A DNA stretch of 21,156 bases from a virus. Both the position numbers and the translations under genes were made by a program. Below the pieces are notes generated by a model. That model was not told the origin of the DNA, searched no databases, and saw nothing but the letters and a program-made list of their open reading frames with translations. Location: the IMG/VR virus record IMGVR_UViG_3300024518_003117, positions 1 through 21,156 of that record; one strand, written 5' to 3'. Position 1 is the stretch's first letter. Each line of letters starts with the position of its first letter. Of this stretch, positions 1,084-12,629 are shown piece by piece.

Positions 1084-1163
1084 GGGTGGGCCCTCCCTAA
1101 AGTCTGCAAGCTTTCAAGCCGCAAGCCAGCAAGCTTGACAAGGGACCTGGGATAGTATAGGAT
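1084..1163 (+). promoter_or_regulatory. Repeat-type promoter module, copy 1
   Basis: In order: the block GGGTGGGCCCTCCC (1084-1097), four CAAGC repeats at 1107, 1115, 1122 and 1130 (steps of 8, 7 and 8), a perfect TTGACA directly against the last repeat (1135-1140), a 17-nt spacer, and TAGGAT (1158-1163) within GGGATAGTATAGGATT. Copy 2 at 1565-1645 has the same order and nearly the same spacing. It would start RNA near 1170, about 70 nt before the ATG at 1240. Confidence 0.7.
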
Positions 1164-1180
1164 TACAGCTTGAGCTCGTT

Positions 1181-1217
1181 TGGTGCTTTTCCGCTCGATA
1201 AATTTGCCAAAGCACCA
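1181..1217 (+). promoter_or_regulatory. Leader hairpin upstream of the 79-aa gene
   Basis: TGGTGCTTT (1181-1189) and AAAGCACCA (1209-1217) are exact complements, giving a 9-bp stem with a 19-nt loop in the predicted 5' leader. It ends 12 nt before the AAAAAGGA ribosome site and 22 nt before the ATG at 1240. It could control message stability or translation; there is no T-run for attenuation. Confidence 0.5.
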
Positions 1218-1239
1218 TAACAAACAAAAAGGAAAAAAA

Positions 1240-1479
1240 ATGAACATAAGAGAAATAAAAAAAGGTGATAAGATCCTACACACTCACATGGGCAGCCAGC
1301 CGCCAGTGTCCGGCATCGTTAAAGAATCTCCAATAGTTGGCCGGGGCATCCGCAGCACATTGCTGGTCCTGGTTAAAGGTTCGGAGGTTGGACTCTTCGA
1401 CGAGATCGGGTCCATCTATACAAAAGAAATATTAAAGGTGTTCCGGGACGATAACTGGTTACCAGTTGAGCATGTATAA
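1240..1479 (+). CDS. Small conserved-type phage protein of unknown function (79 aa)
   Basis: The start is the ATG at 1240, preceded by AAAAAGGA at good spacing; a longer frame upstream has no ribosome site and would run through the leader hairpin. The protein opens with MNIREIKKGDKILH, and has a GIVKE segment, a hydrophobic stretch LLVLVKGSEVGLFDE and an end LPVEHV. Alternating hydrophobic stretches with Gly turns suggest a small beta-barrel (SH3- or KOW-like), which is only a structural guess. No catalytic residues are evident. It is transcribed from repeat-type promoter copy 1 and followed by a GC-rich terminator hairpin, so it seems to be a one-gene unit in the GC-rich island. Confidence 0.7.
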   Translation: MNIREIKKGDKILHTHMGSQPPVSGIVKESPIVGRGIRSTLLVLVKGSEVGLFDEIGSIYTKEILKVFRDDNWLPVEHV

Positions 1480-1501
1480 AAAATTCCTGTCTGTTAGGAA
1501 G

Positions 1502-1526
1502 GGGGCCTCCGGGCCCCTGAGTCTTT
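1502..1526 (+). terminator. Terminator with UCCG tetraloop
   Basis: GGGGCC (1502-1507) and GGCCCC (1512-1517) form a 6-bp GC stem closed by TCCG, which belongs to the very stable UNCG tetraloop class. A short T-run (TCTTTT) follows at 1521-1526. It lies 22 nt after the stop of the 79-aa gene, which fits termination of that transcript. Confidence 0.65.
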
Positions 1527-1564
1527 TAATAAAAAAATTGAATAAAGAAAACGCTCCCCCGGAT

Positions 1565-1645
1565 GGGTGGGCCCTCCCGGATAGGCTCAAGCGTTCAAGC
1601 TCTCAAGCGTTCAAGCTTGACAGGTCCAGGGAACTGGGATAATAT
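1565..1645 (+). promoter_or_regulatory. Repeat-type promoter module, copy 2
   Basis: GGGTGGGCCCTCCC (1565-1578), then CAAGC at 1588, 1596, 1604 and 1612 on an exact 8-nt period, TTGACA at 1617-1622, a 17-nt spacer and TAATAT at 1640-1645 within GGGATAATATAAGATT. From the GC block to the first repeat is 23 nt and to the -35 box 52 nt; copy 1 has 23 and 51. RNA would start near 1652, 15 nt before the ATG of the Gp88-like gene. Confidence 0.75.
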
Positions 1646-2444: not shown

Positions 2445-2688
2445 AGAATTACGCAAGCGTAATAAATCGGATCAGGTAATTAGCCGAGGAGACTCGACGG
2501 AGGCTGGAAGGCGTTCACCTGGTCCGGGCCTCAAGCCACAAGATAACAATGCCAGCTTTGAAGGCATCAGTGAAGCAGAATATAACAAACGTCATATGAA
2601 AGCTCTAAAAGATGCTGATCCGGGCCTCAAGCTCTCAAGCGCCCAAGCTTTCGAACCAACCTACCGAGGCTTCAAGCCCGACGGCTAA
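2419..2688 (+). CDS. Doubtful ORF with repeat-derived C-terminus (89 aa)
   Basis: The ATG at 2419 overlaps the preceding small ORF by 26 nt. The N-terminal part, MFRHPKYYKELRKRNKSDQ, is basic and looks protein-like. From about residue 70 the frame runs into the CAAGC repeat array, and it overlaps the well-supported antisense nuclease gene by 54 nt. No ribosome site is obvious. If real, it is the last gene of the GC-rich plus-strand island; its tail is probably non-functional sequence. Confidence 0.3.
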   Translation: MFRHPKYYKELRKRNKSDQVISRGDSTEAGRRSPGPGLKPQDNNASFEGISEAEYNKRHMKALKDADPGLKLSSAQAFEPTYRGFKPDG

Positions 2689-2755
2689 GGGTTCAAGCTT
2701 CAAGCCGGAGGCCACAAGCTCCAGTATCCCTGATCCAGGGTACAAGCGCACAAGC
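2628..2755. repeat. CAAGC repeat array
   Basis: Nine CAAGC copies start at 2628, 2636, 2644, 2673, 2693, 2701, 2715, 2743 and 2751; four of the eight steps are exactly 8 nt. They have the orientation of the repeats in the promoter modules at 1107 and 1588, but no TTGACA follows. A CCCTGATCCAGGG inverted repeat is embedded near 2728-2740. The array covers the 3' end of the minus-strand nuclease gene. Confidence 0.8.
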
Positions 2756-3006
2756 TCCGGGTTCGGGGAACCGGCAACGAGGACAAATGAATTTTTTGGA
2801 TGACGTACAAAAAAGCTTATTTGGTGGGGTGATAGACGTACTTTATTAACTTTTGTTAACTTTAACTCTACAAGAAAAAAGCGGCCGTTAGGATTATACC
2901 CCAATATGTCAGGAGTACCGAATAAACAGCGATTCTCAAGCCTTGTCCATATAATTTTACTTTTAATTCTTTTAAGCTCACGCCACAAATCCTTCTCTAA
3001 TTGCAT
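2635..3006 (-). CDS. VRR-NUC-like PD-(D/E)XK nuclease
   Basis: 123 aa from an ATG at 3006, preceded by an AGGG-containing weak ribosome site. The core shows the PD-(D/E)XK signature: GTPDILGY at 30-37 (P32, D33), then FLVELKLTK with E47 and K49, and a conserved-looking HQ at 61-62 in LSPHQISFF. This fits the small stand-alone VRR-NUC group of structure-specific DNA nucleases in phages, which would act on branched or nicked DNA in recombination or packaging. The last 35 or so residues, from about VRLYPGSG, are encoded by the CAAGC array and look like an added Leu/Gly/Ala/Glu-rich tail. It follows the 75-aa gene by 12 nt and shares its promoter at 3267-3295. Confidence 0.8.
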   Translation of the reverse strand: MQLEKDLWRELKRIKSKIIWTRLENRCLFGTPDILGYNPNGRFFLVELKLTKVNKVRLSPHQISFFVRHPKNSFVLVAGSPNPELVRLYPGSGILELVASGLKLEPLAVGLEASVGWFESLGA

Positions 3007-5517: not shown

Positions 5518-5849
5518 GGTTTTTTAGATTCATTCTCATAAGACATATCTGTTGCATGTTCTTTACGTCTTTTGTAAGTTCTTTTATGAATACTTTCCTG
5601 TAAATCTTTACTAAAGCTTGCTAACGGTTTCGTCCTTTCCCTTGTTTGTCGTTTAGATTCCTTGTAAGATTCTTCTAACTCTTTTTTCTCCCTCTCGGCT
5701 TGATCTAAGAAATCTTTAGAGATAAAACTTTCTTCAACATTAATAACTGTTCCCTCGAGATTTTTTTTAAAAATTTCATCATAATTTTTTCGGTACAGAT
5801 CATCTGAAGGTCTGGATTTACCATCCCAATTATTTTTTTTTGTAGCCAT
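5514..5849 (-). CDS. Charged hypothetical protein (111 aa)
   Basis: The ATG at 5849 follows CAGGGACAAGGGG, which supports this start. The protein is highly charged; residues 50-70 (LDQAEREKKELEESYKESKR) should form a long helix or coiled coil, and the C-terminus is rich in Lys, Arg and Glu. No signal peptide, membrane segment or metal site is present. A scaffold or nucleic-acid partner role would be speculation. It overlaps the preceding 37-aa ORF by 20 nt and the next gene by 4 nt. Confidence 0.65.
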   Translation of the reverse strand: MATKKNNWDGKSRPSDDLYRKNYDEIFKKNLEGTVINVEESFISKDFLDQAEREKKELEESYKESKRQTRERTKPLASFSKDLQESIHKRTYKRRKEHATDMSYENESKKP

Positions 5850-7632: not shown

Positions 7633-7837
7633 TATTTCTTTCCTTTAAGTTGTGATAGATATGTGTTTTAATATCCTTTTCTGTACTTATAATAGTTAGA
7701 AAATCCATACCACTATAAGCTTTTGCATAAGCGTTATGGCTTATGGCAATTCCTGTGCCCGAACTCAACATAGCAAACTCAGTGCAAGCGGTGCAAACCG
7801 TCAGAATCAACAATAATATCGTCAACTTTATCCGCAT
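7619..7837 (-). CDS. Putative lipoprotein or exported small protein (72 aa)
   Basis: The ATG at 7837 is chosen over the open frame upstream because AAGGAG stands 6 nt before it. Residues 1-18 are a typical export signal: MRIK, a hydrophobic run (LTILLLILTV) and CTAC, with Cys18 as a lipid-attachment candidate; the -3 residue is Cys rather than Leu, so the lipobox is not perfect. The mature part is small and polar. In a phage such a product would sit in the host envelope, perhaps in superinfection exclusion or lysis. It shares 59 nt with the preceding gene in another frame. Confidence 0.6.
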   Translation of the reverse strand: MRIKLTILLLILTVCTACTEFAMLSSGTGIAISHNAYAKAYSGMDFLTIISTEKDIKTHIYHNLKERNNADR

Positions 7838-7967
7838 CAATTTCTCCTTGGCTATCGCATACTCCACATTGGGCAGTAACTTCTTCTTTTGTTAATTTAT
7901 AAGGTACTCTGATGTAACCATTTCCCTTACAAGCTGGACAAATTATTTTAAGCTTTGGCTTTGCCAT
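7779..7967 (-). CDS. DnaJ-type zinc-finger protein (62 aa)
   Basis: The sequence has one pair of CxxC motifs in DnaJ cysteine-rich style: CPACKGNGY (Cys10, Cys13) and CGVCDSQGEI (Cys34, Cys37), expected to bind one Zn2+. No J-domain is present. The C-terminus is acidic (DADKVDDIIVDSD). Small DnaJ-like zinc proteins of this kind occur in many phages, with unknown roles. The ATG at 7967 lies inside the last codons of the RHH gene, and its 3' part overlaps the lipoprotein gene by 59 nt. Confidence 0.7.
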   Translation of the reverse strand: MAKPKLKIICPACKGNGYIRVPYKLTKEEVTAQCGVCDSQGEIDADKVDDIIVDSDGLHRLH

Positions 7968-8118
7968 TTAATTTCCTCGCTTTCTCATTCACTAAAATAC
8001 TTATAGTTTGTGATCTACTCAAAATTGCATTTGGCACCATTACTTTTCTTATCTTATCTATTAAATCATAATCTACATGCTTTAAAGATACATTTTTATA
8101 TTTTGTTATATCCGTCAT
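7948..8118 (-). CDS. Ribbon-helix-helix-like small DNA-binding protein (56 aa)
   Basis: The protein matches the Arc/CopG pattern: a short strand (YKNVSLKHV, 7-15), a helix (YDLIDKIRKVM, 17-27), then LSRSQTISILVNEKARKL (33-50) as the second helix with the usual S-R-S-Q turn. Such proteins bind palindromic operators as dimers through the strand. It is the first gene of a long operon with its own promoter (8156-8185) and a strong site, AAAGGAAGGAG, before the ATG, which fits an autoregulator. The twin palindromes at 4199-4238 are candidate targets, by inference only. It overlaps the next gene by 20 nt. Confidence 0.65.
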   Translation of the reverse strand: MTDITKYKNVSLKHVDYDLIDKIRKVMVPNAILSRSQTISILVNEKARKLNGKAKA

Positions 8119-8155: not shown

Positions 8156-8185
8156 ATTATTCTCATAAAATACAATAGGTGTCAA
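8156..8185 (-). promoter_or_regulatory. Promoter of the RHH-led operon
   Basis: Minus strand: TTGACA (8185-8180), 18-nt spacer, AATAAT (8161-8156). RNA would start near 8149, giving a leader of about 31 nt with AAAGGAAGGAG ahead of the ATG at 8118. Confidence 0.65.
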
Positions 8186-12410: not shown

Positions 12411-12629
12411 TTATCTGGTTCCATAGTCCCTTTCAATTATCATTTCTATAAAGTGAATAGCCTTGTCCAAATCCTGTCTCTTTCCTTTCAGCCTATGACG
12501 GCAGATGTATTTTATAACGCAGCCTTCTGGAAAAAGCAACTCATTTTCAACTACAAATTTACTTGGTTGAATTTTAAACTTCTGATAATGTGATCCACCA
12601 ATTTGTTTGTCGTATGCCTTAGATGTCAT
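12411..12629 (-). CDS. DUF3310 family protein
   Basis: 72 aa with the recognisable DUF3310 pattern: YDKQIGGSHYQKFKIQPSKF at 6-25, then GCVIKYICRHRLKGKRQDL (36-54) and DKAIHFIEMII. The family is common in phages and is sometimes labelled nucleotide kinase, without firm evidence to my knowledge. The ATG is preceded by GGAGGACAAAGG, a very strong site, and overlaps the helicase gene by 11 nt. Its place between helicase and polymerase suggests a link to replication or nucleotide supply. Confidence 0.8.
   Translation of the reverse strand: MTSKAYDKQIGGSHYQKFKIQPSKFVVENELLFPEGCVIKYICRHRLKGKRQDLDKAIHFIEMIIERDYGTR

Follow-up and report, generated by a model that had tools for sequence, protein, structure and literature searches.

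What reads a row of short, evenly phased repeats that touches a phage promoter, and what would its binding do there? This question is raised by a virus record of 21,156 bp (IMGVR_UViG_3300024518_003117), which was analyzed at its full length and is referred to here as the window. The window is part of a pelagiphage of the HTVC023P/HTVC027P type, with matches to HTVC027P, HTVC023P and 023Pt_psg01 in PolA, helicase, primase, GP88 and further proteins. A plus-strand island at its left end, with a G+C content of 47% compared with 33-35% elsewhere, holds the two promoters P1 and P2 (Table 1). A sequence-only reading had described two places with the same order of elements, and this description was confirmed: in both copies the first CAAGC lies 23 nt after the start of the GGGTGGGCCCTCCC box, the four CAAGC units keep a period of 8 nt with a single 7-nt step (in array 1), and a perfect TTGACA stands directly 3′ of the last unit. 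The GGGATA.TATA.GATT block that was placed next in this order is indeed present in both copies, but its distance from TTGACA is unequal (8 vs. 13 nt). A -10-like TA...T hexamer nevertheless lies exactly 17 bp from TTGACA in both P1 and P2, despite this shift of the block by 5 nt. In the whole window, CAAGCNNNCAAGC occurs eight times, on one strand and within 1.7 kb, compared with 0.03 copies expected from dinucleotide shuffles.

Table 1. Positions in the window of the arrays, promoters and associated genes.
Feature	Position	Strand	Basis
GGGTGGGCCCTCCC box, 5′ of array 1	1084-1097	+	read from sequence
CAAGC array 1, four units, starts 1107, 1115, 1122, 1130 (steps 8, 7, 8)	1107-1134	+	
Promoter P1: TTGACA 1135-1140, 17 bp, TAGGAT 1158-1163	1135-1163	+	read from sequence
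79-aa ORF downstream of P1, no family match	1240-1479	+	
GGGTGGGCCCTCCC box, 5′ of array 2	1565-1578	+	read from sequence
CAAGC array 2, four units, starts 1588, 1596, 1604, 1612 (steps 8, 8, 8)	1588-1616	+	
Promoter P2: TTGACA 1617-1622, 17 bp, TAATAT 1640-1645	1617-1645	+	read from sequence
GP88-family gene (PF17338), downstream of P2	1667-2278	+	89.9 bits vs. curated cut-off 24.4
CAAGC units 3′ of GP88, third cluster, without TTGACA	2628-2755	+	
RHH-like protein, 56 aa, proposed array binder	7948-8118	-	
TTGACA 5′ of the RHH-like gene, without a CAAGC array	8180-8185	-	

Several smaller features accompany the island. A long imperfect inverted repeat, CTGATCCCTGATCCAAGG ... TTTTGGATCTGGGATCAGGG, occupies positions 871-955 upstream of P1. 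A convergent nuclease-like gene (2635-3006, minus strand) overlaps the downstream CAAGC units with its 3′ end, and these units are therefore also translated into its C-terminus. The GGGTGGGCCC box (1084-1097 and 1565-1578) is far more frequent at 8-nt or mixed arrays than at those of period 7, and is perhaps a second binding site.

Public viral contigs were scanned exactly for CAAGC-N-CAAGC-N-CAAGC-TTGACA at periods 6 to 11. Period 7 gave at least 120 stretches and period 8 (CAAGCN3CAAGCN3CAAGCTTGACA) gave 60, and periods 6, 9, 10 and 11 were rejected with 1, 1, 0 and 0 stretches, respectively. The 8-nt period put forward in the sequence-only reading holds for the window but is not general, the period being 7 nt in most relatives. 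GP88 is the first gene behind 45 of the promoters examined from the 8-nt scan, the window included, and the remaining promoters mostly have a few small gene families downstream. Among the matches listed in the 7-nt scan, GP88 starts no more than 900 nt behind 71 of the 86 promoters examined. In 15 larger viral records, arrays of at least three units are confined to the GP88 island and always lie on one strand; the reversed pattern, used as a control in the same 15 records, yielded no arrays.

These scans start from the pattern; a set of 80 GP88 loci was gathered by protein search only. Among the 74 of these unselected loci with at least 200 nt of upstream sequence, 61 have an array within 400 nt upstream, and in 42 of the 74 TTGACA follows directly behind that array. 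The repeats are thus kept with the promoter, and the refuting case named in the sequence-only reading, relatives that possess the promoters and not the repeats, does not hold. A second array lies within 700 nt downstream of GP88 in 63 of 71 unselected loci, and none of 121 downstream arrays is followed by TTGACA. In the GP88 loci, successive CAAGC units are 7 nt apart 820 times, 14 nt apart 78 times and 8 nt apart 29 times, with little else, and control words in the same loci are near zero and show no phasing. The spacer letters are nearly free, with all 16 dinucleotides found among 914 7-nt steps, and broken units with one-letter changes (CAGGC, CGAGC and GAAGC) are common and still in phase. 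The expected conservation of spacing is therefore borne out in the relatives, and because the word and its phase are kept while the spacers are free, the phased CAAGC arrays look like selected binding sites and not like slippage repeats. The GP88 homologues that were checked in Roseobacter and Caulobacter phages, and that of HTVC033P, have no such arrays.

A -10-like hexamer lies 16-18 bp from TTGACA in 89 of 97 distinct array promoters, compared with a mean of 14 after shuffling, and 81 of the matches are at exactly 17 bp. TTGACA followed at 16-18 bp by a TATAAT-like hexamer is the sigma-70 arrangement, which P1 and P2 of the window share, and judged by their hexamers and spacing the array promoters are near-consensus promoters for the host RNA polymerase. 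According to the published infection transcriptome of HTVC027P (PMC12753301), this phage has no RNA polymerase of its own, and its genes fall into early, middle and late classes and an "extra cluster 2". This last cluster consists of exactly gp33 and gp34, is separate and transient in the RNA-Seq data, and is high at 6-9 h; promoters are not mentioned in this paper (PMC12753301). In the genome of the cultured phage, gp34 and gp33 (the GP88 gene) are the only genes preceded by arrays abutting TTGACA. The temporal cluster formed by gp33 and gp34 therefore provides independent experimental support for the array promoters as a separate regulatory class. Its timing is compatible with activation and repression alike and does not tell them apart. 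With the 61 of 74 loci, the phase and the temporal class of HTVC027P, the earlier suggestion that the repeats form a phased array of half-sites for a regulator that binds side by side is supported. For gp34 of HTVC027P (L075:17530-17670), the published assignment to Pdase_C33_assoc (PF14756) was not reproduced, and hmmscan found no Pfam family at E ≤ 0.5.

A candidate for the array binder is encoded by the same phages. The window ORF at 7948-8118 has the look of a ribbon-helix-helix (RHH) protein, and its counterpart in HTVC027P is gp21. Its homologues have 56-60 residues and are encoded 3.3-7.3 kb behind GP88, on the strand opposite to it. Each of the 27 distinct GP88 loci that combine an array with 7.5 kb or more of downstream sequence carries the gene. 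The gene also occurs where CAAGC arrays are absent (L105 and psg01), and its presence alone therefore does not discriminate. Divergent RHH-like proteins were also detected by profile in psg01 and, with a weak match, in HTVC023P; with these matches, presence or absence was dropped as a diagnostic and the relation of subtype to period was used instead. The Pfam family RHH_1 matched four members, with a best value of 7e-4; in divergent members of subtype E the match falls just short of the curated cut-off, and the window protein itself has no Pfam match. The PHROG families "Arc-like repressor" and "transcriptional repressor" match some members below threshold, and a sequence search of the PDB yielded nothing of use. 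A structure search with a monomer model of the window's own subtype returned no RHH match of weight. Because RHH proteins are dimers and the monomer model was unproductive, the search was repeated with subtype E, and RHH folds (MatP, CopASO, Arc, CopG, AmrZ and ParG) dominated the Foldseek results against the PDB, all with weak E-values. In RHH proteins, the N-terminal strand reads the bases. The N-terminal strand KYK[NS]xS[LV] is conserved across the subtypes, and the CAAGC word is conserved in the same way, whereas the remainder of the protein differs between phages, as does the period.

The variation of protein and period is matched. In subtypes B, C and D, 279 steps are of 7 or 14 nt and 5 of 8 or 16 nt; in subtype E, 33 steps are of 8 or 16 nt and 2 of 7 or 14 nt, from few distinct loci. 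Subtype A is mixed, and both periods are tolerated within one phage. Some of the loci behind these counts are overlapping records. HTVC027P and L020 have GP88 proteins that are 84% identical, yet they differ in both RHH subtype and period. RHH subtype goes with array period in these sequences, with the qualification that the subtypes were defined once the data had been seen and that subtype E is small. In partial Mantel tests, whose permutations correct for ancestry only in part, RHH distance tracks period when ten of eleven other genes are held fixed one by one, and it also does so with the gene beside P1 held fixed. The small genes beside RHH show no tracking of period once RHH is held fixed, and the gene beside P1 shows none either. 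The genes adjoining the array, that of the terminase small subunit among them, are no weaker than RHH in tracking period, and the RHH signal is lost (partial 0.04) once the nuclease gene overlapping the downstream array (2635-3006) is held fixed. Strong tracking by genes near the downstream array is what linkage predicts.

The sequences themselves show phased arrays in a promoter context, the association of these arrays with GP88, and an accompanying RHH-like gene whose subtype matches the period. We infer further that the RHH protein is the array binder, that its binding is cooperative and that its effect on the array promoters is repression. We consider it fairly probable that the arrays are multi-copy operators of the phage RHH protein, which would time GP88 by repressing it. 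Each dimer of this protein (window 7948-8118; gp21 in HTVC027P) would take one CAAGC, read by its N-terminal strand, and the array would be filled side by side with a dimer every 7 or 8 bp. As the last unit adjoins the -35 box, the resulting filament would cover or crowd the -35 region of a near-consensus sigma-70 promoter. The accumulated protein would then repress GP88 and the small gene behind P1, and repression that sets in after accumulation would leave a pulse of expression in mid-infection. In many relatives of HTVC027P, GP88 would accordingly be expressed from a strong promoter that is bordered on its upstream side by evenly spaced CAAGC units, most likely the landing sites of the RHH protein. 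The downstream array might take part in looping, obstruct convergent transcription or titrate the RHH protein. A broader proposal falls a little short of being probable: one RHH family would have kept its base-reading strand and the CAAGC word while its packing switched between 7 and 8 bp, with operator period and protein co-evolving, and the arrays flanking GP88 would form a dedicated one-island regulon, possibly acting by looping or as a roadblock.

The same arrays and the same protein could also serve activation, with dimers stacked up to the -35 edge recruiting the host RNA polymerase and turning GP88 on after the early genes. The last CAAGC unit ends exactly at the -35 box, a position typical of class II activators, and RHH proteins of the AmrZ type are able to activate. 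In HTVC027P, moreover, the early genes come first and gp33 and gp34 do not rise until 6-9 h. However, promoters that are near consensus in both hexamers and in spacing should need no help, and in many subtype-A promoters the spacer between -35 and -10 contains another CAAGC in phase, where a bound protein should block. Repression is preferred because of these two features, and we regard activation as unlikely. Reading of the arrays by a host (SAR11) DNA-binding protein or by another phage protein is a distinctly poorer prospect. Promoters of host sigma-70 type and the occurrence of the RHH gene without arrays are in its favor, but the period follows the phage RHH subtype, and the exact 8-nt pattern had only three matches in 84,980 species genomes, one on a phage contig within a SAR11 cell and two on MAG contigs (L072 and L073) that look unrelated. 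These three matches therefore give no sign of a host regulon, within a scan that covered the 8-nt pattern only.

The terminase small subunit (TerS), encoded just downstream, might bind the arrays in the initiation of packaging or in its own autoregulation, given that pac sites often lie near terS, that the arrays are about 1-2 kb or less from terS, and that TerS distance tracks period as strongly as that of any gene. However, neighbors between the array and terS that do not bind DNA also track period, as expected from linkage, and packaging leaves unexplained both the arrays that touch TTGACA with 17-bp spacing to the -10 hexamer and the separate expression class of gp33 and gp34; we find this very improbable. 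That the arrays are simple repeats spread by slippage or by a mobile element, and not binding sites, is hardly credible. The G+C content of the island, above that of the rest of the window, and the difference in period between phages would agree with such an origin, but CAAGC and its phase are retained between spacers of nearly random sequence, the control word set lacks phasing, and the arrays stand at the promoter and the 3′ end of one gene only.

Operation by the RHH protein, which we favor, has precedents. A literature search found no paper describing these repeats. The omega protein (ParB of plasmid pSM19035) binds parS/operator arrays that lie over promoters and consist of 7-10 contiguous non-palindromic heptads, with one RHH dimer per 7-bp repeat (PMC9499535). 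The likeness would lie in an RHH or RHH-like protein and in runs of contiguous, non-palindromic 7-bp units over promoters, a description that fits the 7-nt class of most relatives, whereas the window is mainly of 8 nt. The omega unit is WATCACW, whereas the pelagiphage unit is CAAGC with two or three free letters; in the pelagiphage arrays all units have one orientation, the period is 7 or 8 and the target is GP88; and omega has a ParA partner, whereas none is annotated in HTVC027P. As the nearest worked example, omega provides the geometry that we propose for the CAAGC arrays. The RHH protein MetJ likewise binds promoters in a side-by-side manner, at 8-bp intervals, but it is a metabolite-controlled cellular repressor with a palindromic 8-bp met box, whereas the CAAGC units lack a palindrome and share one orientation. 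Arc and Mnt of P22 are small phage RHH repressors at promoters, with operators of a few half-sites compared with runs of 3-7 short units here. Plasmid replication iterons, near the origin and the Rep gene, have a period of about 17-22 bp, unlike the CAAGC period of 7-8. Apl of phage 186 binds several direct repeats between promoters (PMC7498355). Its repeats are one helical turn apart, and it is an excisionase and lysis-lysogeny regulator.

HTVC023P-type phages infect SAR11, which is among the most abundant bacteria of the ocean. Little is known about the gene timing of these phages, and the present case supplies a definite operator together with its target and a candidate regulator (56-60 residues), in a phage that is in culture and whose infection RNA-Seq reads are public (PRJNA1253180). 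The array promoters offer a reason why two HTVC027P genes form a temporal cluster of their own, and the 7- and 8-bp periods provide a natural series of operator and protein variants for the packing of RHH proteins on DNA. In addition, the widespread and uncharacterized GP88 family becomes tied to dedicated control. Its conserved cysteines, CxxCYA near the N-terminus and CPA...CxxCRxCW near the C-terminus, suggest a metal or Fe-S site.

Beside the RHH gene of the window, a 62-aa ORF (7779-7967, minus strand) with a zinc-finger-like CxxCxGxG motif overlaps the end of that gene and may be translationally coupled to it. HTVC023P has no CAAGC arrays and carries three copies of a direct repeat of about 33 nt directly before gp22 (L096, around 12480-12566). 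In psg01, whose RHH protein is of subtype E, 4-nt GAGC/AAGC repeats occupy the position of the relatives' CAAGC arrays (L070:4877-4950 and 5670-5790).
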